Of a DNA stretch of 64,000 nt, positions 6,285-62,202 are shown one piece after another. The DNA is from Hermatobates lingyangjiaoensis (taxonomy: Eukaryota > Arthropoda > Insecta > Hemiptera > Hermatobatidae), in contig JAPFBL010000035.1 in the NCBI GenBank assembly GCA_026182355.1, forward strand, positions 620,001-684,000, written 5' to 3'. Positions within the stretch are counted from its first letter, which is position 1. The number at the start of each line of letters is the position of its first letter. Position numbers and translations under genes: made by a program. The notes beneath the pieces are model-generated. The model saw nothing but the letters and a program-made list of their open reading frames with translations. It was not told where the DNA came from and did no database searches.

Positions 6285-6873
6285 GTCGATGGTCTTGAAG
6301 AAACACTCAGTGTTTGAGTATATATAAAATATATATATATACATATAATATATCAACGTACAGACCACAATAAGAAGTTAGATAATAGACAAGGATCATC
6401 CAGCCGTAACTAGCGGTCTTTGTCAGAGTTGAATACAAACTGAAACCAAAGATGTAGAACTATTTGGTAGAGGGATTGAGAAGAGAGAGAGTCTCTGTGT
6501 GATGACTTCTTTAACTCTTATCCATAGAAAAAGAAGTGATATTGTTAAAAACTGTACCATTAAAGGCAACTCGACCGCTTTTCAAATTATATATAACTAC
6601 ACTGAAAAAACAAATACAAAGAACTGCTACAAGCAGTTCTATATTTCGACTCTCGCCGCCATGAGAAGGATTGGGCCTCTCGGATCCTAGGCAGCAACAG
6701 TTTCTGTTCCTTTCCGTGGAGTAATCTTGAATGTAATGTATTCTACTTATTTTGTTTGTAGTTTGATGGGTGTTGTTATTGAATATATATATTTTAAAAT
6801 ATATAAACAGTGGTCCAACCGGAATTAATATAACTAAACATTACTCCCTTCGTAAATAAATGATCGTAATAAG
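6285..6873. repeat. Direct repeat, copy 1 (about 590 bp)
   Basis: Almost identical to 7069-7661, with only small indels and substitutions, in the same orientation. The repeat contains family A-like sequence (about 6360-6440), a family C-like hammerhead remnant read on the - strand (about 6638-6665) and TA-rich tracts. Tandem terminal repeats of this kind are usual for Penelope-like elements (pseudo-LTRs). Confidence 0.7.
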
Positions 6874-7068: not shown

Positions 7069-7661
7069 CGAATGGTCTTGAAGAAACACTCAGTGTTTGA
7101 GTATATATAAAATATATATATATACATATAAATATCAACGTACAGACCACAATAAGAAGTTAGATAATAGACAAGGATCATCCAGCCGTAACTAGCGGTC
7201 TTTGTCAGAGTTGAATACAAACTGAAACCAAAGATGTAGAAACTATTTGGTAGAGGATATGAGAAAGAGAGAGAGTCTCTGTTGTGATGACTTCTTTAAC
7301 TCTTATCCATAGAAAAAGAAGTGATATTTTAAAAACTGTACCATTAAAGGCAACCTGGACCGCTTTTCAAATTATATATATACTACACTGAAAAAACAAA
7401 ATACAAAGAAACTGCTACAAGCAGTTCTATATTTCGACTCTCGCCGCCATGAGAAGGATTGGGCCTCTCGGATCCTAGGCAGCAACAGTTTCTGTTCCTT
7501 TCCGTGGAGTAATCTTGAATGTAATGTATTCTACTTATTTTGTTTGTAGTTTGATGGGTGTTGTTATTGAATATATATATTTTAAAATATATAAACAGTG
7601 GTCCAACCGGAATTAATATAACTAAACATTACTCCCTTCGTAAATAAATGATCGTAATAAG
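7069..7661. repeat. Direct repeat, copy 2 (about 590 bp)
   Basis: Second copy of 6285-6873, about 786 bp downstream. It ends at the same AATAAG boundary as copy 1, after which the flanking sequence becomes unique and runs into the rough homeobox exon. Confidence 0.7.
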
Positions 7662-7789
7662 TGTTGTGTTCTGCGTATTTTTTAGTAGATCCAAGTTCAC
7701 ATTAATACTTAAAGGACTAGTTTTGGTGTAACTACCATAATACCTCTTGTTAATTGTAAGAATAAAAAATTAAACATTTCTCTTTACAG

Positions 7790-8024
7790 TGGCCAGGAGA
7801 AGACGCAAGGAAGGAAGAGGTCGTCGCCAAAGAACATCCTTCAGCAGTGAACAGACACTGCGCCTCGAACTCGAGTTCCACAGATCAGAGTATATCTCGC
7901 GAAGTCGAAGATTTGAACTTGCAGAGGCTCTTAGACTTACTGAAACACAAATCAAGATTTGGTTTCAAAACCGAAGAGCGAAAGACAAACGAATAGAAAA
8001 GGCACAACTCGACCAGCAATACAG
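7790..8024 (+). CDS. ro: rough exon with complete homeodomain
   Basis: The acceptor TTTACAG ends at 7789 and the donor GTAAAG starts at 8025. The first two bases complete a codon begun in an upstream exon. The homeodomain is encoded by 7819-7998. Hallmark residues are in place: F8, L16, F20, W48, F49, N51 and R53, with [12 protein letters not shown] in helix 3 and Gln at position 50. An Arg/Lys-rich run precedes the domain. Confidence 0.93.
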
Positions 8025-11000
8025 GTAAAGAGCGTTACTTATTTCAGTTTTTTTCTTTTTTCACAAGCAATTTTTTTTTACATTTTATTAACAAACTTAC
8101 TTTTCCATTGTTAAAGAAGTTTGATGATTTTTCATATAATGCTGATGTCTGTTTCATAACAATATTAAATTTCAACACTCTAGAGTTAGTAGTTTAAGTG
8201 GAAACGAATTCCTAGAATCCATTTTGGCCTAATAAGTGACTCATTCATAATGAAATATTGCCTGAAAACGATAGGTCAAAATTGTTTATAACACTACACT
8301 AAAGAGACACTATGTGTAAAATATGAATTTGAATCATTCATAATCAAAAGTAATTTCAGTATTATATTCTAATAATTATTTATTAAAATAATGTTTGCAC
8401 TCTATTTGTAATAAAGTACGATTTGCTCGGGTTTTTGCAAAAAGACCCCGTTTCTGGTTTGTTTGACTGACATTTAAAACTTAACAACTCCTACTTCTGT
8501 CTACCAAGTTTACTTAGATAAATGGACCAATAGTCAATTCTAAATACCAATTTAAATACAACTCGACAAGTTGTCCTTTATTGAGCCAAAGGCTGAGTCA
8601 ATATCAAAAGAAGGTATGTGTTGTTGAGAATGATTTAGTGATTAGACAATGAAGTTTGCATTCCAAGTTGTTAATGCAATCCTGGTAACACTGCCTTACC
8701 TCTGTGAGAAATGAATCTCCAACTCTCAGTTTATCACGTAAGGTAAAAGTCGAACTAGGCAAAGCAACTAGAATATATTTTTAATAACAATTATTTTTAG
8801 TTGCAACGTGTGCTTCACAACTCATTGTTGGCACTTTTTTTATATTATCTTATTGATGACTTTCATTTAATTATATTAGTTTAATAGCATTTTGTTGTTA
8901 GGTAATTGATTAAAACTTCAGTCACAATGGGAATGAAAAACAGACCCATGTCTTTTATTATAGATATATATAAGATTTCACAAAAACACGTGAAATAACA
9001 ATCAATGATCAAACCACAATATGAAATGGGAAAACAAGACTAAGATCTTTTAACCGTAACAAGCAGTCTTCGTCAGAGTAGTTGGGTTTTGACTCTGACG
9101 AAGACCGCTTGTTACGATTGAAAGATCTTAGTCTTGTTTTCCCATTTCATATTGTGGTTTGATCATTGATATATATATATATATATATATTTGTAAAAGT
9201 TGGAAGCAGTCCTTCATTTAAACATATATTGTTAAATAACACCCCATATTTGGCTTGTTTCTGTTTCTTGTACAATTTCTCCAGTTTCCGGAATTCCTTC
9301 CTCGTCTCTTCATTAAAACTATAAAGCTTATCACCAATATTGCTAGTCGACATGTTTCGAATGTACCACATTCATCATCAGGACAATAATGAGAATAATA
9401 GTAGGATTGTTAGTTTATATAGAGAGAGGTGGATTACTATTGGAATGTTCACAAGACATCACTCTGGATCACGGGGCATTATGGGGGATTAATGTAGGGT
9501 GGTTGGACTCACCTACTACCTGGCTAATCTGGTTTGACCTGTTGGAAAATAGTTTTAAAATTCAACAAGAATTATTAAGTTGGATATTTATGGCTGGCTG
9601 CTTTTCTTGAATTATTAATGCTTCTAATATTTGTAATTTAACATGGTTTCTTTCTTTAGAGATAATTTTCGTGGAATTCACGATCATTTCTCTTGTGAGT
9701 TTTGTCTTATTGAGTGCTGTTGTATGGCATTTTGGCGCGCGGGCAGAAAGGTGCATCGTAATTCTTCTTGATAATGAAGTCTTGGTCATTGCTACAAATA
9801 AGCTTTTACGGGCCTCGCTCCTTCTGATATTACATGAGTACTCATACACAAGACTTGTTTCGTTTAATTTTTTTACACTGGGACTATTTTTCATTATTAA
9901 ACTGCTTATTGAAGGGCTTTGGTAGTAGGTTATCAGGGTCAAACTATCCTCAAGCTTAATACATTTAACATGGCTTTTTATGATACTTTTCAAGACACGT
10001 TCATCAGTTTTATATTCATCTGTATATTGGTTCTTGTAGAATATTTTGTGGTTTGTGCCTGTCTTTATGCTCTTATTGTCTGAGGTGAATCTGTTCTCCA
10101 GGTATCGTCTTAGAATGTAGTCGAAATATTTGTTTGAGTAACCATTGTTATTAGCGCTTGCTTGGTTGAAGAAATATTACTGTAAAAAAGGTCCCAGGAT
10201 GAGGTGGTCTTGTACGTTTTGTGGATGAGGGATCAGATAGTGGCGTCTTTATACCGTTGAGGGCATTCACTCTTCGCATTGAAGAGACTCACATTCTTCG
10301 CATTTTTGACTCTGACGAAGAACGCTTGTTACGGTTGAAAAACCTTATTCTTTTTTTCCCATTTCATATTGTGGTTTGATAATATACTCGATTATATATA
10401 TATCTTACTCAACATGGTTGAGAAACGGTATATCAGATAGTCCAGAATATGGAAGGTTCGGGATTTTATGATTTTAATAGTCAGACATAGTTCGTGTTTT
10501 TCAGGTCATCTGAATTATCGGCTTCCTGCGTATTATACCCCACCCCCCATCTCACTCTCTCTCTCCCACTCTCTATAGGGTAGAAAACCAATAATTGTGA
10601 GTCTGTTAGATTCGTGAGTTAGGGAGTATGAAATGTCCGTGTTACAGGATGATTGCTGCGTTGTCCAATAGTGTCGTGCAGGCATGATTGGGTCGTGACG
10701 TCACACCACCCCTGCATACACCCCTTGTCTGTTCACCTGTCCAAGCCTTATCAGAGCACTGCCCTAATTCCCAGATTATCAGTTTTTAATTAAACTCAAC
10801 CCGGTCATTATCATCAAAATTTAATTTCTACCTATCTATTTCGACTAATTTGAAAAAAAAATAACTTTAAGCATGCTTTCTCAATGTGTCTTTAAATATT
10901 AATCTATTTCCTACAATTTATAAACATTATCTGCAGAATCTGAAAAATTGTTCAGGTATACAGGCGAGGTGAAGAGAAGCTTGCACATTCAGAATAAAGC

Positions 11001-22379: not shown

Positions 22380-22890
22380 TTTGATTATATATATCTACGT
22401 CCAAACCACAATAAAGAATGAAAAAAAAGACTGAAAAAACTTATTGCCTTTTAGACGTTGATTGTTCACGTGAAATCTTATTTTATATACATGTATATAT
22501 GTAAAAGATTTCACACGTGAAACAACAATCAATGATCAAACCACAATATGAAATAAAAAAAACAATACTAAAATCTTTCAATCGTAACAAGGAGTCTTCG
22601 TGACTCTGACGAAGACCGCTTGTTACGGTTTGAAAGATCTTAGTCTTGATTTTCCCATTTCATATTTTGGTTTGATCATATATATATACATAACAAGATT
22701 TCACAATAAACACGTGAAAAAATAATCACTGATCAAACCACAATATGAAATGGGAAAAAAAGACTAATCTCTTACTAAGAACCAACTCAGTTGGGTTTTT
22801 GGCTCTGACGGAGACAGCTTGTTAAGGTTGAAAGATCTTAGTCTTTTTTTCCCATTTTATATTGTGGTTTTGATAATTGAATATGTAAAA
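22380..22890. repeat. Two family A foldback repeats in tandem
   Basis: First unit about 22395-22675, second about 22690-22875. Each has a left arm starting near GATCAAACCACAATATGAAA and an inverted right arm ending in ATTGTGGTTTGAT or ATTTTGGTTTGATC, with a hammerhead-like core in the right arm. The second unit has CTGACGG instead of CTGACGA, so its core is damaged. Confidence 0.65.
22602..22645 (+). ncRNA. Hammerhead-like motif, family A
   Basis: GACT, CTGACGA, CCG/CGG stem II, one extra T, GAAA, palindromic AGATCT, T, then AGTC pairing with GACT. Same as the 46771 copy except for the inserted T before GAAA. Confidence 0.4.
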
Positions 22891-26108: not shown

Positions 26109-27995
26109 CTAGTAACAGAGGTTAACTAGTGTGTAAAAATGTGTAGTCTTTTTAGCACTACTGTACGACATTTTGTCTATGAATTTATGACATTTCTGTA
26201 TTATTACTTTGCACACAACAAATAAATACACTGTCCCTTTAAATTTCATATTATCTTTTGTTTTCAAAATATATTTCCTAATCTTATATTGTTAAACATA
26301 ACAAATAACAAAAAAGACTCAATAGCAGAAGCGAGAACCATGTTTAAGCATTGATACTCAGGGAAGGACTTTCGATGTTTCTGAAGTAGCAGGTTAGAAG
26401 GAGAAGACGAAAGGCCAGTTGGCCATTCAATGGACAACAATAGGCGGGCGTTTAATAATCACCGCTCTGTCTGGTCAAGATGCGCCAATTCCAATAATCA
26501 GAGCTCCTTCCTTCAATCAGTCCCTGACTCATTCTTCTCCCAGTCACAAAAGACTTGTTTTTTCTTTCCAATCAAGACCCTTCGTTTTCTCAAAACGCCT
26601 GATTGATAACCATAACAGTGGATCTAATAGTACCAATCTTTTTTTAACTTTTGTGTATTTATTTTTCTTTATGAAAAGAAAATACGATTCCTTCTTCTTA
26701 TAAAATTCATTGTAAAAGAATATTAACAAATATAATACTGTTTAAAAAATGTTTCGATGGCCATATAGAACTTTTTTACAACATCCCAAGAAGTAACTAC
26801 AACTAATCAACCATATCTTCCCTAAATACTCCTTATTCAGTGACGACAAACCGACTCACCAGAGACCATTGCGAAAAGACACCTCAAGAAGTATTAGACA
26901 CATATTCAGCGCAGGGTATCAGTATATAACTCAGTTTTTTCTATTTGTGTTTCTTTGTACACCGAATAATATGTGTATAAATATGGTCACCTCGTAGTTC
27001 GTAAATGACTCCACTTTTTTATTCTTGTCATTCTATTACTTTCCTGAAGCCTTTGGAATGCCTAATTACATAGAAATGTAATCCTTTCCTTTTTATTTGT
27101 TAATACGTTTACAATACAATTTAAACATACTTAAATGTCATAAATGTACCAACCATGAAGCAGAAAGATTAAACATTTTATCAGGAATCAAGTTTATCTC
27201 TTCGCAATCAACAGTGTTAAAATATTCACTGACACCTTCTCCATATATAATCTTCTCACATCTTCACAAAAATTCAAAATTGCAAGATTAAATAAAAGTT
27301 GGTTGTGTTATCGACCGTGGATTGAATATTAATGTCCTTCATAAAAACATTCAGAGGCTCATGCTTGCTTCATTTATTTAACAAAAACTATTCCTGCCAA
27401 GCTGGATTTAAATGTTCAAATATGAGATATTTGTTCTAAAAATATATTTAAATAAACACGCATTTCATCATTCAACGTTGCAATGATTAATACGGTTGGT
27501 TCTAATTGCTGCTACACTGTCAACCTAAATAGTTCCCTGGTCACAGCAGTCACTAGCGCAGAGCTGACTTATCAAACAATGCTATTCACTCCTAAAAAAA
27601 AACATTAAATTCATAATGTCATCACATTTCAGGTACTTTATCGCCCATTTAAGCAAAGTGCAGTGCTCTCCCCACACGTAGCTGTCTCAATGACACAATA
27701 ATATCATTCAGCCATGGCAGTATACATACTTGAAAGCCGCTCAGAAGGTAGTGCACGTTTCTACAGCCTGCCAAGTGAAGTAATCACTATTAAAGGTTAA
27801 GTAGTATCCAAGTAGTACGCATTGCGGTTCCTTTGTTGACGATTCGTCAAAGTTCCGAGACGTACTGTGTCAGTTCTTTAACCTTAATTTGATATATATA
27901 TCAGCATTTCTCTGTATACCGAAAACACTTATTGTATTTTTGTGTTTTACATTACGTTTTCTATTCACATGAAACAAAAATCAACGTCTTAAATA
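26109..27995. other. Intergenic, nothing recognised
   Basis: No exon, RNA gene or defined repeat could be supported. Open frames at 26419-26703 and 27097-27291 lack recognisable motifs. Confidence 0.35.
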
Positions 27996-27999
27996 CAGC

Positions 28000-28140
28000 A
28001 ATAAATTCCGGAATGAGACTAACATCTTTTACCAAAAAACTAGTACTCTTCAGTCTGTTCGAGTGTGACTGACGAAGTCCAGCTGTTTTGATTGAAAGAT
28101 CTTAGTCTCGTTTCTGAATTTCTTACTGTGGTTTAGACAC
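28000..28140 (+). repeat. Diverged family A foldback
   Basis: Left arm with GACTAACATCTTTTACC and right arm with GAAAGATCTTAGTCTCG. The core keeps CTGACGA and GAAA plus AGATCT but has lost two bases 5' of CTGACGA that would form stem I. Confidence 0.5.
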
Positions 28141-28329
28141 AGTGTTTAATCTTAATTCTTAGAGTCCAGATATATGCCAACACAAAGCTGAGCTTGGGTT
28201 CCAATAATCAGTTCTTCCGTTGGTTGTTGTTGTTTTGTTGTCCAATGCCCGCACTAATAGGCTATCTCTTTTAGTGTTATTGTAGGAGCGGAATGTAATT
28301 AGCTTACTTTAGCTCATTTGTTAACTCGC

Positions 28330-28740: not shown

Positions 28741-28819
28741 CAATAATATTTATCAATACTTTAATTTTCTTATATTTTAACAATAATTCTGTTATTTCAA
28801 TTATTTCCTTTATATATGT

Positions 28820-28975
28820 AAATATATAGTTCAATGTACATTCAGATACACAGAGCAATGTGTCTCACTATGTATGTGTTTTCTTTCTCTCTCCATGTGA
28901 GTTTCTTTGTGTTTGTATGTACATTGAACTATATTTGTCCATTTCGAACAGCAAAAGTGTATATATATTGATTAA
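28820..28975. repeat. Inverted pair of family B end sequences
   Basis: ATATAGTTCAATGTACAT near 28825-28842 recurs inverted at 28918-28935, flanked by AAAAGTGTATATATA as in other family B copies. The ribozyme part is absent. Confidence 0.45.
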
Positions 28976-29005
28976 TTTACCACAATGAAAATAATTTGGA
29001 AACAA

Positions 29006-29042
29006 TGCTCTAAGGCCTTTCGTCAAACATCGTCAGAGAGCA
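29006..29042 (-). ncRNA. Candidate type I hammerhead ribozyme, Penelope copy 2
   Basis: Best copy in the window. Read on the - strand: TGCTCT (29042-29037), CTGACGA (29036-29030), one T, stem II GU/AC closing a UUG loop (29028-29022), GAAA (29021-29018), palindromic AGGCCT (29018-29013) as stem III, T29012 as cleavage nucleotide, then AGAGCA (29011-29006) pairing with all six bases of the 5' TGCTCT. It lies just downstream, in element sense, of a Penelope endonuclease remnant (29108-29385). Stem II is very short, as in minimal hammerheads. Activity is not demonstrated. Confidence 0.68.
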
Positions 29043-29107
29043 AGTGAACTAAAAAGTAATAAATACTTGTTAACCTGGTTGATTGAAATCTCTAGAATTG
29101 TTGGTAA

Positions 29108-29385
29108 CCCTGAATATGTTTAATGATGAAGAAGTCTTCATCTGTTTAATTATTCTGCTAATAATAACTTTATCCAATTTATAAAGTCCTAGGCTATTGT
29201 TCATTAATTTCTCATAAAAGTTTTTTATGAGTGCACTTTCCACAATATTTCTTCATCTTTCCTAAGACACAAATATTAATTCATTTGCTTCATTCCAGTT
29301 AATCATATGATTACAGTTTCTTATGTGCACGAACAAGGCACTCTTTTCGTCTTCTCTTCTAATCCGATATTTGTGTTACTTTATC
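29108..29385 (-). pseudogene. Penelope-like element, second GIY-YIG endonuclease remnant
   Basis: The - strand gives YRIRREDEKSALFVHIRNCNH then INWNEANELIFVS, typical of the middle of Penelope endonucleases (ALFxHxxxxxHxIxW). After a frame break it gives NIVESALIKNFYEKLMNNSLG, the conserved C-terminal helix with the catalytic Glu. The family differs from the copy at 9562-10173. Upstream, to about 29480, a poorly preserved continuation can be traced. Confidence 0.65.
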
Positions 29386-29480
29386 CTTGTAAGAAGACCT
29401 TTGCTCGTCTCCAATGTTGGACACCTGGACAAGCTGGATACTTTTTGAAATTACATGAAAGAAAAGGGCGTTATAGTCCA

Positions 29481-31398
29481 ATTTATGATTTCATAAAATG
29501 TTTTTTTTTTCGAAAAACAGCTAACTATAAAAAAAGAGATATTTTCTAAGAAAAATCAACTTAAAATCAGTATGCTATACAAAAATATTAAAGCAATTCT
29601 GATTACCTCAAAATATAATAAAGCTTTAAAAACTGAAAACTCAACTTTGGATAACCAATAACCTACTGTAGATACTGATTTGTTATCATTGACTTATAAT
29701 ATTTTCATCAGAATGGATTAAAAAAAAATTGCTATTTAAATGTTCACAAATGAAATTTGATGATATTTTAATGAATTAATATGATATGTAAGTAGATTTA
29801 ATTCTTAAAACTATAAATGCAAACGCTTATCAGTTAAAAATTGTATTACGTTTTCATGGGAGTTTGCTTACCTAAAGGTTGTAATCAATCTACATGATGC
29901 AATCTTGAAACAAATCATATTGGTACATACACAAGTTGTAGGCGCTTTTAAGAATTCCAAGATTTTAGAGTATTGTCGAAGTACGTAGAGGTAGTTTTCC
30001 GTTCTTTATAACAAAACGGCTAGTAATTTCCAGCCACTTTTCGGGTGACTGAATAAAATTAAATTTTGTACCATTTATTGTCTTACTATCAATATTTCAT
30101 TATTTAAACATTGGACGAATAATATTACATTAAATATAGTAATTATTAGGTTATATCTGTAGTGAAATGAAGTTTTTTGTAAATAAACATTTTTAAAAAG
30201 GGCATAATACTTTCTGAAGGACAAGTCAACACAGTTAATTATACAAAACCGGGCTAAGATTAAAAAAAACACCCTAAGTCTTAAAGGAATCATTCTCAGT
30301 GCTGTTTCGTGGATACTGTGGGAGATTTGATATTTCTTGTATATTCTGTCAGCCTTTAACCTTTTTTAGCGAAAGGTTTGAGGTTTTACCTCTTAAAACA
30401 CAGCCTCAATCGGGCAAGAGAAACAGGACGAGACAACAAATGATGAACTAAAGGAGTCACTGCGGAAAAAAAACTAAAGTTCGTGTACAATATTTTAGAT
30501 TTGTAAGTAGTGTGAGCCCCTCTATACTTTGAATGAGGACAAAGAAAACTCTACCGTATAGATGAACTGGTTTAATGGCTTTTTTTTAGAGATGAAGAAC
30601 AATTGACTCCATTCAACTTCACCAAAACAACATCACTTCAAAAACAACTCATTCTTCTACCCATCTATTTTTTTAAAAAAAGAAACCTTTATATAGGTTT
30701 CTTTATATAGGTAAAACGAAAAAAAAAGTTAATTCGGAGTTAAATCTTTGATCCATTTCTAAATAGAAATTTTAGTATTTCGTAAATACATATATGTACT
30801 TGGTTACTTGTCATGTTTACGATCTGATGATATTTACACGAATGTTGAAATGCTCTCTTTGAATTAAATACCATAATTTATGAACATAATTTGAGTTAGT
30901 TTTGTGAATTGAATTGATTTTAGCATAACAAATTGTATAAATATTGCTTCCACAAAAGTGTATTATATAAGTTAAACCATTTAAGAATGTTTTTTAAACA
31001 TAATAGTCAATCTGTATTGTATTCGAATAGTTGAAGCACACAACATTTTTTCATCGACGACTTTCATTCAAAAGTTAGCATTAGTTAGTATATACAAAAG
31101 ATATCATCTATAGGTCATTACATTTCAGACCTGAAAAATAAATACCTTCTAAAAATAATTTAACAGGCTGCAAATTTAATTTGCTTTTAAAGATTTTTTT
31201 AGAAAGGGTAAGTAGGAAAAGAAAAGGAATGAAACAATGGAAGTTATAAATATTTGGTATTTACCATGTTTAATATTAATATAAATGTTGAAAGGTAACT
31301 TTTTCCGTTAAAACTAATACTGATGCCACAGTATTGGTTTCAACCATATCTAAAAGATTCTATTTGAGATCTATTTACATTAATATATATTTCAACCT
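29481..31398. other. Downstream flank of MIPEP; degenerate repeat
   Basis: 29560-29830 is the third copy of the old repeat seen at 300-620 and 12790-13060. The MIPEP 3' UTR should lie just below 31399 on the - strand; an ATTAAA-type signal (TTTAAT on + near 31268) is the nearest candidate poly(A) signal. Nothing else recognised. Confidence 0.4.
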
Positions 31399-31671: not shown

Positions 31672-34600
31672 CTACAAACAGCCATCAGAATTAGCTTCTA
31701 CTCCTCTGACACTCGAAAATGCTAACAATAATAATTCTTATTTGAAAACGAATCATTAGATATGCACTAATTATGAACAGACAGGATTAAAATAGGAAAT
31801 ACATATTTAAAATCATTAACAAAATTATTAATTATGAAAATAACAATAAGGATACTTTAATACAAAAATGTATCCGACCAAATTAAAACCAGGTGCAAAT
31901 CTCAGTACTAGCAACCAAATATGTGCCTCCTCAAGGAGCAATTAGGATGAATTGTGATGATTCATTTGCAGGCTAAATAATGTAGTGGCCAGGAAGACGT
32001 AGAGTGAATGCATCTAAACGATTAAAACAGCTACTAAAAGATCACGAGTTAATAAAGTTAAGAAGATAATTTTAGTTACTTATACAAAAGGTGAAATAAT
32101 GGTCAGACTTTGAGGGTAGATTAGGCAGTTATTACGAGAAAAATATGGTATATGTACATATACAAACAATAAATATACATTAATAAGTAATTACACACAT
32201 AATAATTAGATGGAAAATATGTTCACAAATCAAATTATATATACATATATGTTCATATAATATATCTGCAGAAATATCACAGCAAACAAAACTGATCACA
32301 ATCAAAGAAATAACTACAGCATCAAAGAATTTCTACGTCCTTTCTAACTGACAAATAAATGACAACTAAAAAAAAAGGTGTGAATCAACAAATGAAATCG
32401 AGCAATCAAGAGAAAACTGTAGAACTCGTGAGAAGAACGGGAGCAGTTAACTCAGCGATGCAAATATGCATTAAATTTTGTGGTGTTTCATCCTTTTAAT
32501 TAGGACAAATAATTTATTAATTAACTGACTAGACAACTTAGGTAGACTCACTACAGGATTATGTTTACATAGAGTGATGAGTGTTAACTCATTAGAGAGA
32601 ATTAACTATATTAATTCTACTTACTGTTCCTGGCACATGAGGAAGAGGATAGTATTTGTTTTGAGCTTCTTTTAAGATTTCATTGGGCGATTTAAAGATT
32701 CCTGAATGTAAGTCTTGATCAAGTACTGAATAGAATAACTGCAAGTGAGTGTCTGAGGCAGCAAGAAGATGTTTGGAGGAACAGAGTTTATGGATCATCT
32801 CTTGAGGCATGGGCTTACCTGTAGCATAGTGGGAAGCAAAACTGCTAATCACCTGAAAGGAGAATACAACTGGCATTATTCTCCTGACAACTTACTTTCA
32901 TGTCTGATATTGAAAAACATAACACTTACTAAATAAGGAACCCTTTTAATTTCATCACATTATAATAATTTGCTAATATAAATAATTATTTACTTCCTTA
33001 CAAATAGTTGTATAGGAACACTAATACAGTGGTTCGCACTGTATATAATGCCCACCAAATAGGTCGAGAGCCCATTTCCACGAGTTCATGGAGTATTGTA
33101 AGAACACGTAGTAAACTATGCAATTAAAAGATTAATCGTCCTTTCAATTAAATTATTATTCATAACATGAATAAATATACCAAACATTCTTTGTCATTGC
33201 TTAATCATTGTCATTCGCTGCTGTGATTAATCATTTTAAATTTTAAAATATTGTTTTATCAAAATTGGCAATTACTATGTCTTAAGAAGAGTTTTATTTG
33301 ATGGTAATGATATCATTGTTATTATTAAAAGAAGTAATTTACTGGGAAGTTTTGTAAAATACCTCACCAATATGTCATGCAATATGTACCTGGGGTCGGG
33401 TTGTTAACCATTAGTGACTAAGATATTGAGATTTGAATCTTCATCGTAACCCAAGTTTTTTTTTATGATAGAAATTGTTATATACGTCATCCTTAGCTGA
33501 AGATTTAAAGTCGTCGGTCCGAGCCTTTACAATGTCAGGTACTTGTTAAAGATCACTACCCTCTATACTAACAAGCGATTAAGAAAATCCTTAAGCATTC
33601 AATCCAGAATCAACCACACTTTCCCTCCCAGTACAGTACTGAAGTGAAACTAATCATTGTAGATGTCATGAACAAACACGTACCTCAATGTGGTTGGTTT
33701 TATCATTGAACATGATTCAGGCGTTACTCATAGCAATCAAAAGTAGGTCGAAAGAAGCTTCCAATATGATGAGAAACATAATTTGTTACACGGTATAGAA
33801 CCCTCTATTGTTTTTACTAAACTATTTACAACCATACACACTGTATAGTGAACTGTTTAAACTTTGTTTACTTTAAATGATATTTTATTATCATTTAAAC
33901 ATTTTTGTAGCAGTATAGCATAATAAGCCATTTCTTAATCTAATAAAGCTTCCTTTAATTATTAAAAGGCTTCTCGAATACTGCTGCTAAAAGTTTCATA
34001 AGAAACTCTCGACAGTGATTCATTTTCCACTGGGTCATATTTTATAAATTAGTTGCACCAGCCTCAAACTCTGAACAAGAAAAGTTCTTAAGATTATTTT
34101 CATAGAGAATACAATTCTTATTCTTGGAATAAATTTAGTATGTAAGTTGAAAAATATGATATTATAAAAGTTAAAATGTAAACCCGAAGATAAAACTTTC
34201 TAATATAATTAAAACATAAAATATATATATTTTTGGTAAAATGAATTATACTTACTCTTGGATCAGAGGCGAAATATTCCATTAGTATAGAAGGTACTTC
34301 TGCGAGGTCAGTAGAACAGCGAGTGCCAGAAACATGTTGGTATTTCGTCCTGCCCAGCATTGAATGCATTGCATGACCCATTTCGTGGAACAAATTGTCC
34401 AAAATCGAAGGAGTTAAAAGAGTGGGCGTGTTCCAACCAGGAGAAGCTAAATTCAGCATTACCACAACTACGGGCGTCTACAAATAACAATGTTATACTG
34501 AAGTGAACATTGCTGAATAGCATGAAGTGATAAGCAATAATTCTTAAAATTGACATTAAGATTAATAACTGCTGTCAAAAACAAGCACTTTGTGGGAAAT

Positions 34601-46639: not shown

Positions 46640-48769
46640 TATATATTCGATAAAAAGATTTCACATAAACACGTGAAACAACAATCAATGATCAAACCAC
46701 AATAAGAAATGGGAAAACAAGACTAAGATCTTTCTTAGCAAGATACTCATAAAAACTGAGTTGGGTTTTTGACTCTGACGAAGACCGCTTGTTACGGTTG
46801 AAAGATCTTAGTCTTGTTTTCCCATTTCTTATTGTGGTTTGATCATATATATATTCCTAAAAGTTAGAAGCAGTCCTTCTTGAATACATATATTTAAAAA
46901 CGTTATGTCTGATCAATCTTTAATTTGAACAAACTTGAATTGTAGAAAAGGTTTCGAACTTTGAGAAACATTCAACAAAGTTAAGTAAAGTGAAATCAGA
47001 CATAACGTTTTTAAATATATACAGGGTGTCCATAAAGTATTGTACACTTTAAAAAAAATTATAACATTATTTGTATTGACGATAGAAATAATCTGTAAAA
47101 AGGATTAGCAAGAAGTAAATATATATTTTTTTAAGATTTTATTGAAATTTCCAGATGTCTTCCATCATTAGCAATATAAATGGTAGGATTTGGCAGTTTA
47201 CGGAACACATTTGTCAATTGATTTACAATAATGCCTGAAATCATATTAGTTATTCTAGCTTTGACTAATGTGATTTCAAATATTTTAATGAATTAGGCTG
47301 GGTTGCATATACAATTGTTTTTACATATCTCCATAAAAAGAAAACTAAATGAGTCAAATCTGTCAAACGTGTAGGCCAATGAAATGGTCCACCTCTTCCG
47401 ATCCATCTGTGAGGAAATTCCCGATTCAGAGGTAGTTAGGGAGGTTAAACTTAAATGCAATTTCCATAAAACCTTAAAAAATATAGATTTACTTATTTCT
47501 AATACTTTTTTTTGTTATTTACATCACAAATACAAATAAAGTTATACATTTTTCAAAGTATCAAGGACTTTATGGACACCCTGTATATATATATATATTA
47601 TTCTAAAAATTTTATGCCAATTTCATCCTTGGTTACCTTTTTAAAGAGTTTCTCTAATGTCCTACAGGCTCTTCCCAGCTGCTCGGGGAATAAAAAAATC
47701 AACTGGCCCAAACTTTTCCTTTCGGAAATATATACATATAACCAATTTATGAAACACAATTGAAAGTTCAAAAATAACTGAATCTGAAATTCGGTTTTTA
47801 ATACATAGTAAAATGAATAGAGTAATATCTAACAGACATGCTCCCATTATTTTAAATATTTTTTTGATACATAAGTTAACCCAACTTAACAGTTTCAAGT
47901 TTAAGCTTATTTAGTAATGTTTCATACTAGTCACAAATAGTTGGAAATATCGAATATCATTAATCTCCGATCACTGATGAATTTAATTGAAGCGCGTTTG
48001 TTGATACAATTTACACCTGAACAACCATTGTCAAGCTAAAGTTTTAAAAAAATACTAAAAGAAAAAAGTCGGAAACTAATAGTTGATTACCTAAAATATT
48101 TATGTGTAGGGATAGATTATCAGGATTAAGTAAAATGAAACAAATATTACATCTGTAGCAGAAAAGTGTTTAAAATTATTTGCATATACCTTTCAACAAT
48201 TCCACTAATATTTATACAAGCATCTTCAGCAGAGTTTGAAAAATTTGTCTGAGGATGACCTAAGCGAATAAACTCAGCCAGATCAGCGACTTTGCAAAGA
48301 GTGTCGGAAAGTTCATCGAATATATTAACTAACTTACGGTTCCTGAAACAAAATTACAATATTCATACCTGTAAAAGATATGGAGGTATATCTAGAAAAA
48401 GTTGGTACACAAACCGTTTAGGGTTACATGCTTCGGATATTAAATCTTCTGTTTGTCGTTTCACATTTTCTTTCATCAAGTAAAAACCATCATATGTTTG
48501 TAGTTCAGAGTAACCAAAAAGCCCCTGCATAACAGAATTTATTATAATTGAGGCTAATGTTAAATATGAATTGATACACAATGTTTTTATCTCTAAAAAT
48601 AAAAATTATTAGTACTTACAGCATTCTTCTTAAAGTTTAAATTCAATCGTACGTTTGGTCGTGAATTAAAAGTAGTAACCAAGGAAGAACTCGTACTAAC
48701 ATGCTTAATTAACAAGTCTAACTGATATAATTTAGATTTAATATTAAGTGGTTGAAATAATAATTTCAT
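31399..48769 (-). CDS. MIPEP: Mitochondrial intermediate peptidase, complete, 11 exons
   Basis: M3-family zinc metallopeptidase of the mitochondrial matrix. The family removes an octapeptide from precursors already cut by the matrix processing peptidase. Exons on the - strand: 48620-48769, 48415-48524, 48190-48342, 46159-46425, 43629-43817, 41663-41804, 39253-39463, 36733-36860, 34256-34477, 32625-32852, 31399-31671. The coding sum is 2073 nt, 690 residues plus TGA, all phases closing; known MIPEP proteins are about 700. The N-terminus ([13 protein letters not shown]...) is basic and Ser/Thr-rich with few acids, fitting a mitochondrial presequence. The zinc site is HEMGH at residues 481-485, with the third ligand expected at Glu510 in LAEVPS. 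The introns contain SINE, Penelope and mariner insertions. Confidence 0.95.
31672..32624 (-). other. MIPEP intron 10
   Basis: 953 bp, AT-rich, no recognised element. Confidence 0.6.
32625..32852 (-). CDS. MIPEP: MIPEP exon 10
   Basis: Residues 525-600, phase 0 at both ends; acceptor CTTTCAG, donor GTAAGTAG. Encodes [16 protein letters not shown] through [10 protein letters not shown], the helical part after the zinc site. Confidence 0.93.
32853..34255 (-). other. MIPEP intron 9 with a SINE copy
   Basis: Contains the diverged SINE at 33405-33620; the rest is unremarkable. Confidence 0.55.
33405..33620 (+). repeat. SINE copy, diverged
   Basis: Shares TCGGTCCGAGCCT, CAATGTCAGGTACTTGTTAA and AGATC with the SINE at 38445-38770. 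A degraded tRNA-like head with TTTGAATC lies near 33430-33450. Confidence 0.6.
34256..34477 (-). CDS. MIPEP: MIPEP exon 9, zinc-binding exon
   Basis: Residues 451-524, phase 0 at both ends. Contains [11 protein letters not shown], then [20 protein letters not shown], with the HExxH zinc ligands and general-base Glu, then [19 protein letters not shown] with the downstream zinc-ligand Glu. No key residue is missing. Confidence 0.95.
34478..36732 (-). other. MIPEP intron 8
   Basis: Contains near 35640-35730 a diverged single arm of the foldback at 5003-5385 (TTTAAATAAAACCGGAACGT). Nothing else identified. Confidence 0.5.
35640..35730 (+). repeat. Diverged Penelope-type repeat arm
   Basis: CTGCTTATAGAAAAGGC followed by AAACCGGAACGTC parallels the arms at 5070-5110 and 5285-5325. 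The GAAA box is mutated to GGAA. Confidence 0.5.
36733..36860 (-). CDS. MIPEP: MIPEP exon 8
   Basis: Completes Val408 and encodes 409-450 ([20 protein letters not shown]...GSYQ). Acceptor ATTTCAG, donor GTATTG. GxIYCDFFxRxxKPxQDCHFTI is a highly conserved M3 block. Confidence 0.93.
37925..38160 (+). repeat. SINE copy, diverged
   Basis: Has a box B-like GAGGTTCAAATGA near 37978-37990, then GACGTAACTAACTGTCG and ATTAAAGATCC, in the same order as the intact SINE about 500 bp downstream. Confidence 0.6.
38445..38770 (+). mobile_element. tRNA-derived SINE with 13-bp target duplication
   Basis: 326 bp flanked by perfect copies of TAGTATCACACGA (38432-38444 and 38771-38783). The head folds like a tRNA: CCAGGT (38451-38456) pairs with ACCTGG (38513-38518); a box A-like TTAGCTTAGTGGTTAAC starts at 38457; box B GGGTTCGATCGCC starts at 38500. 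The body is unrelated to tRNA. The 3' end is AACCTAACCTAACC, a short CCTAA-type tail. Pol III would drive transcription; mobilisation would need a partner LINE. Three diverged copies lie in this window. Confidence 0.85.
39253..39463 (-). CDS. MIPEP: MIPEP exon 7
   Basis: Residues 338-407 plus one base. Starts [14 protein letters not shown] after acceptor TTTCTAG and ends [12 protein letters not shown], donor GTAAAT. The LGTCMEGL and GEVWSxD blocks match the family. Confidence 0.93.
39464..41662 (-). other. MIPEP intron 6 with a tandem repeat
   Basis: Contains three tandem units at about 41318-41462; 40740-40850 is a simple TTA/TAA-rich tract. Nothing else recognised. Confidence 0.55.
41318..41462. 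repeat. Tandem repeat, 3 x about 47 bp
   Basis: Units with ATCTCTGTAACATTTAAA and CATAAAGTGAAGGCCATCA follow each other three times, the third slightly shortened. Confidence 0.8.
41663..41804 (-). CDS. MIPEP: MIPEP exon 6
   Basis: Completes Arg290 and encodes 291-337 ([17 protein letters not shown]...LNQDSK). Acceptor TTGTGAAG is pyrimidine-poor; donor GTCAGT. The phase closes on both sides and HR-AL matches the family at the junction. Confidence 0.88.
41805..43628 (-). other. MIPEP intron 5 with a direct duplication
   Basis: Holds the 42252-42466 duplication; the rest is unidentified. Confidence 0.55.
42252..42466. repeat. Direct repeat, 2 x about 100 bp
   Basis: The segment from TTTTTTTAAGAATGAGTCCT to GAGTTTAGAAACTAA occurs twice with few changes (about 42252-42353 and 42369-42466). 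Confidence 0.8.
43629..43817 (-). CDS. MIPEP: MIPEP exon 5
   Basis: Completes His227 and encodes 228-289 ([20 protein letters not shown]...FPNFAH). I chose the acceptor just before TTTTCGG; a CAG nine bases further in would break the frame. [15 protein letters not shown] is conserved. Confidence 0.9.
43818..46158 (-). other. MIPEP intron 4 with minisatellite and unidentified segment
   Basis: Includes the 51-bp minisatellite at 44357-44510 and a (TA)n tract at about 46101-46136. 44990-45960 is less AT-rich and has a 100-codon open frame on the - strand (45953-45651) without a recognisable motif; it may be an unidentified element. Confidence 0.45.
44357..44510. repeat. 51-bp minisatellite, 3 units
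   Basis: The unit begins CAAGGACCACGGGGTCTTTG. Two units are identical and the third is changed in the middle. Because 51 is a multiple of three, an open frame (17-residue unit [17 protein letters not shown]) persists. Inside an intron, so coding is unlikely. Confidence 0.85.
46159..46425 (-). CDS. MIPEP: MIPEP exon 4
   Basis: Completes Ser138 and encodes 139-226 ([20 protein letters not shown]...[17 protein letters not shown]...PLHIRE). Acceptor ATTCTAG, donor GTAAGTATG. Confidence 0.93.
46499..46640 (+). repeat. Family B fragment and (TA)n tract
   Basis: Begins inside stem II of the family B ribozyme-like motif (GTTCAACCGAAAATTAG), so the CUGANGA box is missing. It runs to TTTTTGGATCGTTTTCC and then (TA)n. 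Confidence 0.6.
46640..46850. repeat. Family A foldback, best-preserved copy
   Basis: Left arm 46690-46734 and right arm 46799-46843 are perfect 45-bp inverted copies. The right half holds the consensus family A hammerhead at 46771-46813. Confidence 0.75.
46771..46813 (+). ncRNA. Candidate type I hammerhead, family A consensus
   Basis: GACT (46771-46774), CTGACGA (775-781), stem II AG(A)CCG/CGGTT with loop CTTGTTA (782-799), GAAA (800-803), palindromic AGATCT (803-808) as stem III, T809 as cleavage nucleotide, AGTC (810-813) pairing perfectly with GACT. Stem II needs one bulged A and one G-U pair. The same core recurs in at least nine repeats of the window with different degrees of decay. 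Confidence 0.5.
46858..46902 (-). pseudogene. Penelope-like N-terminal motif fragment
   Basis: The - strand encodes [13 protein letters not shown], closely like [12 protein letters not shown] at 9160-9345. A piece with TLEKLFKK at about 47605-47690 on the same strand may be the upstream half of the same element, split by later insertions. Confidence 0.4.
46883..47021. repeat. Small foldback with about 27-bp inverted ends
   Basis: ATATTTAAAAACGTTATGTC near 46884-46910 is repeated inverted at 46993-47019. The interior is non-coding. The mariner copy is inserted at its right end. Confidence 0.6.
47022..47583 (-). mobile_element. Mariner deletion derivative with TIRs and TA target
   Basis: Ends CAGGGTGTCCATAAAGT and ACTTTATGGACACCCTG are perfect 17-bp inverted repeats, flanked by TA on both sides. 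The - strand interior encodes [20 protein letters not shown] and [19 protein letters not shown], the last third of a Tc1/mariner transposase (WPPRSPDLTPxDFFLWG region). At 562 bp it lacks most of the gene and cannot be autonomous. Confidence 0.85.
48190..48342 (-). CDS. MIPEP: MIPEP exon 3
   Basis: Completes Arg87 and encodes 88-137 ([24 protein letters not shown]...NISGIVE). Acceptor GTTTCAG, donor GTATAT. IFDELSDxLCxVADLAxF is conserved in the family. Confidence 0.93.
48415..48524 (-). CDS. MIPEP: MIPEP exon 2
   Basis: Residues 51-86 plus two bases ([17 protein letters not shown]...EACNPK). The frame stays open past 48415, but the donor GTTTGT at 48414 is required: it restores phase with exon 3 and leaves a 72-bp intron. 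A later GTATGA would give a 26-bp intron and a stop. Confidence 0.87.
48620..48769 (-). CDS. MIPEP: MIPEP exon 1 with mitochondrial presequence
   Basis: ATG at 48769-48767, residues 1-50, donor GTAAGTACT. Basic, Leu- and Ser/Thr-rich with a single Asp, as expected for a matrix-targeting leader. An in-frame start further upstream is not evident. Confidence 0.87.

Positions 48770-49168: not shown

Positions 49169-62202
<13,034 letters not shown>

Follow-up and report, generated by a model that had tools for sequence, protein, structure and literature searches.

A probable relic of a Penelope-type minimal hammerhead in a 64-kb window of the Hermatobates lingyangjiaoensis genome

Results

The motif at 29006-29042

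The window, that is, the whole stretch of 64,000 nucleotides that was analysed, carries on its minus strand a short hammerhead-like motif close to a stop-interrupted reading frame. The features nearest to the motif are the following.

29006-29042, minus strand: hammerhead-like motif (stem I, core, 8-nt linker and palindrome)
28970-29052, minus strand: the motif with its pLTR-like flank (ATTGTGGT at 28986), backed by the R1 model match and the flank test described below
29127-29438, minus strand: stop-interrupted frame just upstream of the motif, putative remnant of a GIY-YIG endonuclease

In its content the window resembles the nuclear DNA of an animal, with Pfam domains for a homeodomain (7774-8028, plus strand), an M3 peptidase (34118-34477, minus strand) and a hAT transposase dimerisation region (53132-53497, plus strand).

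Read on the minus strand from 29042 to 29006, the letters of the motif are TGCTCT-CTGACGA-TGTTTGAC-GAAA-GGCC-T-T-AGAGCA. Stem I is open and consists of six Watson-Crick pairs between TGCTCT (29042-29037) and AGAGCA (29011-29006). Both core blocks are complete, CTGACGA at 29036-29030 and GAAA at 29021-29018, and the type I conserved core CUGANGA...GAAA is present with A15.1-U16.1 and H17, the latter being T (U) at 29012. An earlier note, made from the letters alone, had described a six-base-pair stem I, CTGACGA, GAAA and AGGCCT in hammerhead order with a cut after U29012; these letters and their coordinates were confirmed, and the cut site is the right one for a hammerhead.

The palindrome AGGCCT lies at 29018-29013, with GGCC placed between A15.1 and U16.1 and no loop. 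Within one molecule, stem III comes down to a single A-U pair capped by GGCC, and three pairs plus their symmetric partner are available only in a dimer. In the 8-nt linker TGTTTGAC (29029-29022) 0 stem II pairs can be formed, even when G-U pairs are included. An ATG at 29030-29028 overlaps the core, so placed that the cut would fall 19 nt after it, and the frame that it opens ends at a stop after six codons.

Folding, Rfam models and chance expectation

The minimum-energy fold of the motif is not a hammerhead and pairs the core elsewhere. Its energy is at the level of shuffled sequences (z of 0.00 for 49 nt and -0.10 for 37 nt), and the shape holding stem I only reaches -4.1 kcal/mol in the 37-mer, against -6.4 kcal/mol for the best fold. 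The Rfam hammerhead families gave no match at gathering score in the whole 64-kb window, and around 29006 they gave none at E ≤ 10 over either 2001 or 65 nt. The motif had been called well-formed, a description that does not survive the absence of stem II pairs, the predicted fold and the lack of an Rfam match. The silence of Rfam at this site says little by itself, since these models recover no member of the local family described below either, whether at gathering score in the window or in two narrowly scanned family stretches. Weak microRNA-model matches in the Rfam scans fell on inverted repeats, were all below gathering scores and were taken as chance.

The chance rate of such motifs was estimated from 1500 first-order Markov sequences of 64 kb, counting Watson-Crick pairs only. 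Sites with a stem I of at least 6 pairs and a stem III of at least 3 pairs, whatever the stem II, were found in 2 of the 1500 null sequences and once in the window; when a 4-nt segment between A15.1 and U16.1 was also demanded, the count was 0 of 1500 against the one in the window. With stem I relaxed to at least 4 pairs, the window held 5 sites, and the null rate was 2/1500 with the 4-nt segment and 28/1500 without it. Descriptors that required an unbroken Watson-Crick stem II of at least 3 pairs found 0 sites in the window. The excess of loop-less palindromic motifs led us to a local family of hammerhead-like units, which had escaped the earlier note.

A local family with paired, inverted units

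About 22 hammerhead-like units are present in the window, on a plan of CTGACGA, a stem II, GAAA and the palindrome AGATCT; a BLAST search with one of them gave 21 matches at E ≤ 0.01. We aligned 22 oriented stretches, the 29006 site included, and took 14 of these into the alignment (A2). The family consensus is TTGGGTTTTTGACT-CTGACGA-AGACCGCTTGTTACGGTT-GAAA-GATC-T-T-AGTC-TTTTTTTCCCATTTCATATTGTGGTTTGATCA, with or without one letter after AGTC. Compared with this consensus, several stem I and stem III positions of the 29006 motif have changed with pairing retained. All 11 scored core letters are kept in 8 of the 14 aligned units and all five stem II pairs in 5; the core plus every stem is kept in two, 46761-46847 and 22593-22678 (both plus strand). 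Upon free folding of four family units, the one at 46 kb formed stems I and II, its core being partly paired as well, and the remaining three did not form a hammerhead. Covariation among the 14 units did not rise above shuffles, either as paired cells (82.5% vs 80.4%, 31 of 500 shuffles being as high) or as a score (0.136 vs 0.120, 89 of 500 as high), which is what recent, freely decaying copies should show. A viral-contig scan with the family pattern found no relative. Units 6355-6440 and 7137-7222 (minus strand) have the same score (75.3 bits) and the same aligned sequence; they lie within a larger local duplication, in which the open reading frames 6511-6840 and 7383-7628 share long identical stretches.

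A covariance model, R1, was built from the 14 units with the 29006 site held out; its calibration was short and its E-values are rough. The R1 matches could be assembled into eight head-to-head pairs, at 9.1, 22.6, 22.8, 28.1, 46.8, 52.2, 57.7 and 61.5 kb. These pairs and two further units are listed here.

9004-9167, both strands: head-to-head pair, core on both arms, tail on the minus arm
10298-10384, plus strand: single unit beside a Penelope-like coding remnant (R1 match)
22531-22680, both strands: head-to-head pair, core and every hammerhead stem retained on the plus arm (22593-22678)
22728-22877, both strands: head-to-head pair, tail on the minus arm
27983-28141, minus strand for 27983-28065 and plus strand for 28055-28141: old head-to-head pair, the nearest to the 29006 motif (BLAST, alignment and R1)
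46687-46847, both strands: head-to-head pair, core and every hammerhead stem retained on the plus arm (46761-46847)
52084-52299, both strands: head-to-head pair, tail on the minus arm
57139-57225, minus strand: unit with a tail (R1 match and tail score)
57651-57844, both strands: old head-to-head pair, clear tail on neither arm
61462-61607, both strands: head-to-head pair, tail on the minus arm

A 35-nt tail, ATTGATTGTTATTTCACGTGTTTATGTGAAATCTT, is clear on 8 of 24 unit ends, clear meaning a score of at least 20 on a scale where 99% of random segments do not exceed 11. In six of the eight pairs the tail is on one arm only; the 28 kb pair is weak in this respect (13 vs 11) and the 57.7 kb pair has none. 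On the tail-bearing minus-strand arms 46687-46758, 22728-22825 and 61462-61514 the core is replaced by other sequence and the opposite arm keeps it, and the 9.1 and 52.2 kb pairs have core-like letters on both arms.

In the Adineta vaga Penelope, a pLTR has an inverted pLTR as its neighbour, one of the inverted pLTRs may carry a 31-bp tail, and head-to-head is the commonest arrangement described (PMC3846280). The inverted arms and one-arm tail of the local family match the Penelope pLTR anatomy given in the published passages (PMC3846280, PMC11167929). Terminal repeats of a DNA transposon were considered for the head-to-head units and set aside, in view of the one-arm tail and the Penelope-like anatomy.

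The 29006 site as a probable relative of the family

Over the window, R1 listed 33 matches at E ≤ 10, of which the top 22 (E ≤ 0.012) all fall on family units. Fourteen of these went into the model and so match by construction; the remaining 8 did not. The best site below these 22 is 28970-29052 (minus strand), at 21.0 bits and a window-wide E of 0.025; when it was scanned over 201 nt with filters off, E was 8e-5 under the same rough calibration. Next comes 27983-28065 (minus strand), which forms one arm of the old pair at 28 kb and scores 20.8 bits (E = 0.028); the nine lowest matches, from 16.2 bits and E = 0.29, show no other tie to the family. The earlier note had proposed a covariance-model check. 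With the Rfam hammerhead models it went against the motif, and with the model of the local family it recovered the site.

The flank points in the same direction, with a strength that depends on the scoring. Under a first scoring scheme, 18 of 11113 window segments and 25 of 5000 shuffles resembled the family as closely as this flank does; stricter scoring left the signal weak (310 of 11113 segments and 208 of 5000 shuffles). The string ATTGTGGT occurs 17 times in the window, 15 times in family units, once in the 29006 flank and once elsewhere. As in its relatives, the sequence of the copy gives way to TA repeats, here without a tail (score of 7 out of 35) or an inverted arm; published elements may likewise do without the tail (PMC3846280, PMC11167929). 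The nearest unit on the same strand, 27983-28065, is about 0.9 kb away and badly decayed. We read the 29006 site, from these sequence comparisons, as a diverged relative of the family units and not as a close copy.

The main competing reading is that an AT-rich window has assembled the hammerhead letters, the 6-bp stem I and the palindrome by chance, the flank match being noise. We regard this as improbable. It would account for the missing stem II, for a fold energy no better than that of shuffles and for the lack of an Rfam match; moreover, the 29006 site was not among the matches at E ≤ 10 of a sequence-only profile of the 14 units, and the neighbouring endonuclease is unconfirmed. However, the null rate of 2 in 1500 windows speaks against it, as does an R1 match which, obtained with the site held out, scores above every site outside the family.

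Just past the TA-rich end of the motif, 28793-28965 is an imperfect inverted repeat (62 nt, spacer of 49 nt), to which microRNA models from plants and animals align at scores far under gathering.

Coding remnants

Just upstream of the motif lies the minus-strand frame 29438-29127, with 3 stops over 114 codons where the other two frames of that strand each have 11 over 113; 375 of 4902 segments of 104 codons, taken over the six frames of the window, also have 3 stops or fewer. A stretch within it resembles what we take to be typical of Penelope GIY-YIG endonucleases. Protein searches with the frame returned 1 and 29 candidates, none significant, and Pfam at E ≤ 1, PDB sequences and viral contigs gave nothing. 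A profile comparison with the other endonuclease of the window gave a probability of 4.3%, and the AlphaFold2 model of the frame, with stops read as residues, had a mean pLDDT of 55.3 and was not used. These negative results weigh little either way, given the uncertain coverage of animal genomes in the collections. Of the Penelope endonuclease remnant that had been placed beside the motif, the low-stop frame stands and its GIY-YIG identity finds no support in any search; we keep the frame as a plausible candidate for such a remnant. At its upstream edge, 29442-29500 is 74.6% identical to 188-246 (BLAST E = 5.6e-5), and another repeat may begin there.

A second coding remnant lies between family units.

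9562-10283, minus strand: Penelope-like coding remnant, reverse-transcriptase end plus endonuclease (protein matches)

Nine database proteins match it at E ≤ 0.001, with 40-48% identity. Pfam run on these relatives gave GIY-YIG for P0001 and reverse transcriptase for P0002, neither of which reached the curated cut-offs, and found nothing in the window frame itself. For the endonuclease part (9565-10149), an AlphaFold2 model from ten sequences had a mean pLDDT of 70.0; its Foldseek comparison with PDB was uninformative (295 matches at E ≤ 10, 0 at E ≤ 0.001), and a viral-contig scan with the endonuclease alignment found no relative.

Discussion

The minimal type I hammerheads of Penelope-like elements (PLEs) usually do without the non-conserved part of helix III and may self-cleave as dimers (PMC6155905, PMC7761336, PMC6466107). 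Double hammerheads require a palindromic stem III loop and, among eukaryotes, also have to be arranged in tandem (PMC6466107). Such a palindrome is found here as AGGCCT at 29006 and as AGATCT in the family. As far as the published descriptions extend, the motif resembles PLE minimal type I hammerheads (Cervera and de la Pena 2014; Lunse, Weinberg and Breaker 2017) in its type I order, its palindromic reduced stem III, its pLTR-like setting and a likely dimer mechanism, and it differs from them in that the 29006 copy lacks stem II and sits in a decayed carrier.

A close parallel is offered by the Poseidon PAc hammerhead of Anolis carolinensis. According to the passages on this element, its optional tail of 30-40 bp is flanked by two sites where reverse transcription starts, the element favours AT-rich DNA, and ribozyme and start codon overlap (PMC11167929). 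The start codon following core C3 and G8, the optional tail and the AT-rich target preference are all shared with the material presented here (PMC11167929); in contrast to 29006, PAc has a stem II, and its cut falls 26 nt after the start codon rather than 19 (PMC11167929). The pLTRs of Adineta vaga are alike in their head-to-head inversion and optional 31-bp tail on one copy. The passages on them name no hammerhead, unlike what is seen here, and the local units are shorter and mostly without an intervening open reading frame (PMC3846280).

A non-autonomous retrozyme or a satellite might instead be the source of the motif, which we hold to be scarcely likely. In axolotl retrozyme hammerheads, stem III is reduced to a single pair closed by a palindromic tetraloop, as in the 29006 motif, and the amphibian ones are reported to work better as dimers (PMC7229834). 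However, amphibian retrozymes have a stem II and no open reading frame, and metazoan retrozymes are described as short tandem repeats (PMC7229834), whereas none of the listed tandem arrays lies near 29 kb and the local family has a Penelope-like tail and inverted arms.

For a PLE pLTR origin, the R1 match, the palindromic and loop-less stem III and the TA-repeat end shared with the relatives argue together, in agreement with what had first been suggested for this motif. It is likely that 29006 is the relic of a minimal type I hammerhead from a PLE pLTR, a diverged cousin of the units in the window. The copy is probably a decayed PLE hammerhead of the dimer type, a fossil that marks where an old insertion ends. 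In an intact element, two motifs on one tandem transcript would pair through their palindromic stem III, AGGCCU with AGGCCU, and the RNA would be cut after position 17 to give unit-length RNA, as may be deduced from the published family. What PLE hammerheads do in the life cycle of the element is still called a mystery (PMC7761336). The neighbouring frame might be what is left of the element's own endonuclease.

The suggestion that the motif might still be able to cleave finds no support, with stem II missing and the fold not favoured. Cleavage at 29006 is unlikely, even as a dimer, because stem II is absent, whether lost or eroded; such a loss may have left the copy as an inactive fossil, which on the predicted structure most likely no longer cuts. 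We consider it very unlikely that 29006 is a working hammerhead that cuts as a dimer despite this loss, although its core is complete, its stem I has 6 bp and its palindrome is rich in G-C. The Anolis PLE ribozyme, as reported, cut only with added protein, and its mutation did not stop insertion in vitro (PMC11167929); a need for the element's protein means that a poor fold of the RNA alone does not exclude activity. Nevertheless, there is no stem II, the minimum-energy fold pairs the core elsewhere and the nearest unit on the same strand, 27983-28065, is badly decayed.

Laboratory hammerheads without stem II exist. It is conceivable, at very long odds, that 29006 is a natural dimer hammerhead without stem II that relies on its G-C-rich palindrome and 6-bp stem I to cut, perhaps helped by the protein of the element and with a start codon inside its core; if true, it would be the natural counterpart of those laboratory molecules.

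To conclude, the motif at 29006 is nothing unusual in an animal genome that harbours Penelope-like elements. It adds one more animal genome to the known link between PLEs and dimer-type hammerheads, and it shows that an old copy missed by the Rfam models can be recovered with a model built from local units.
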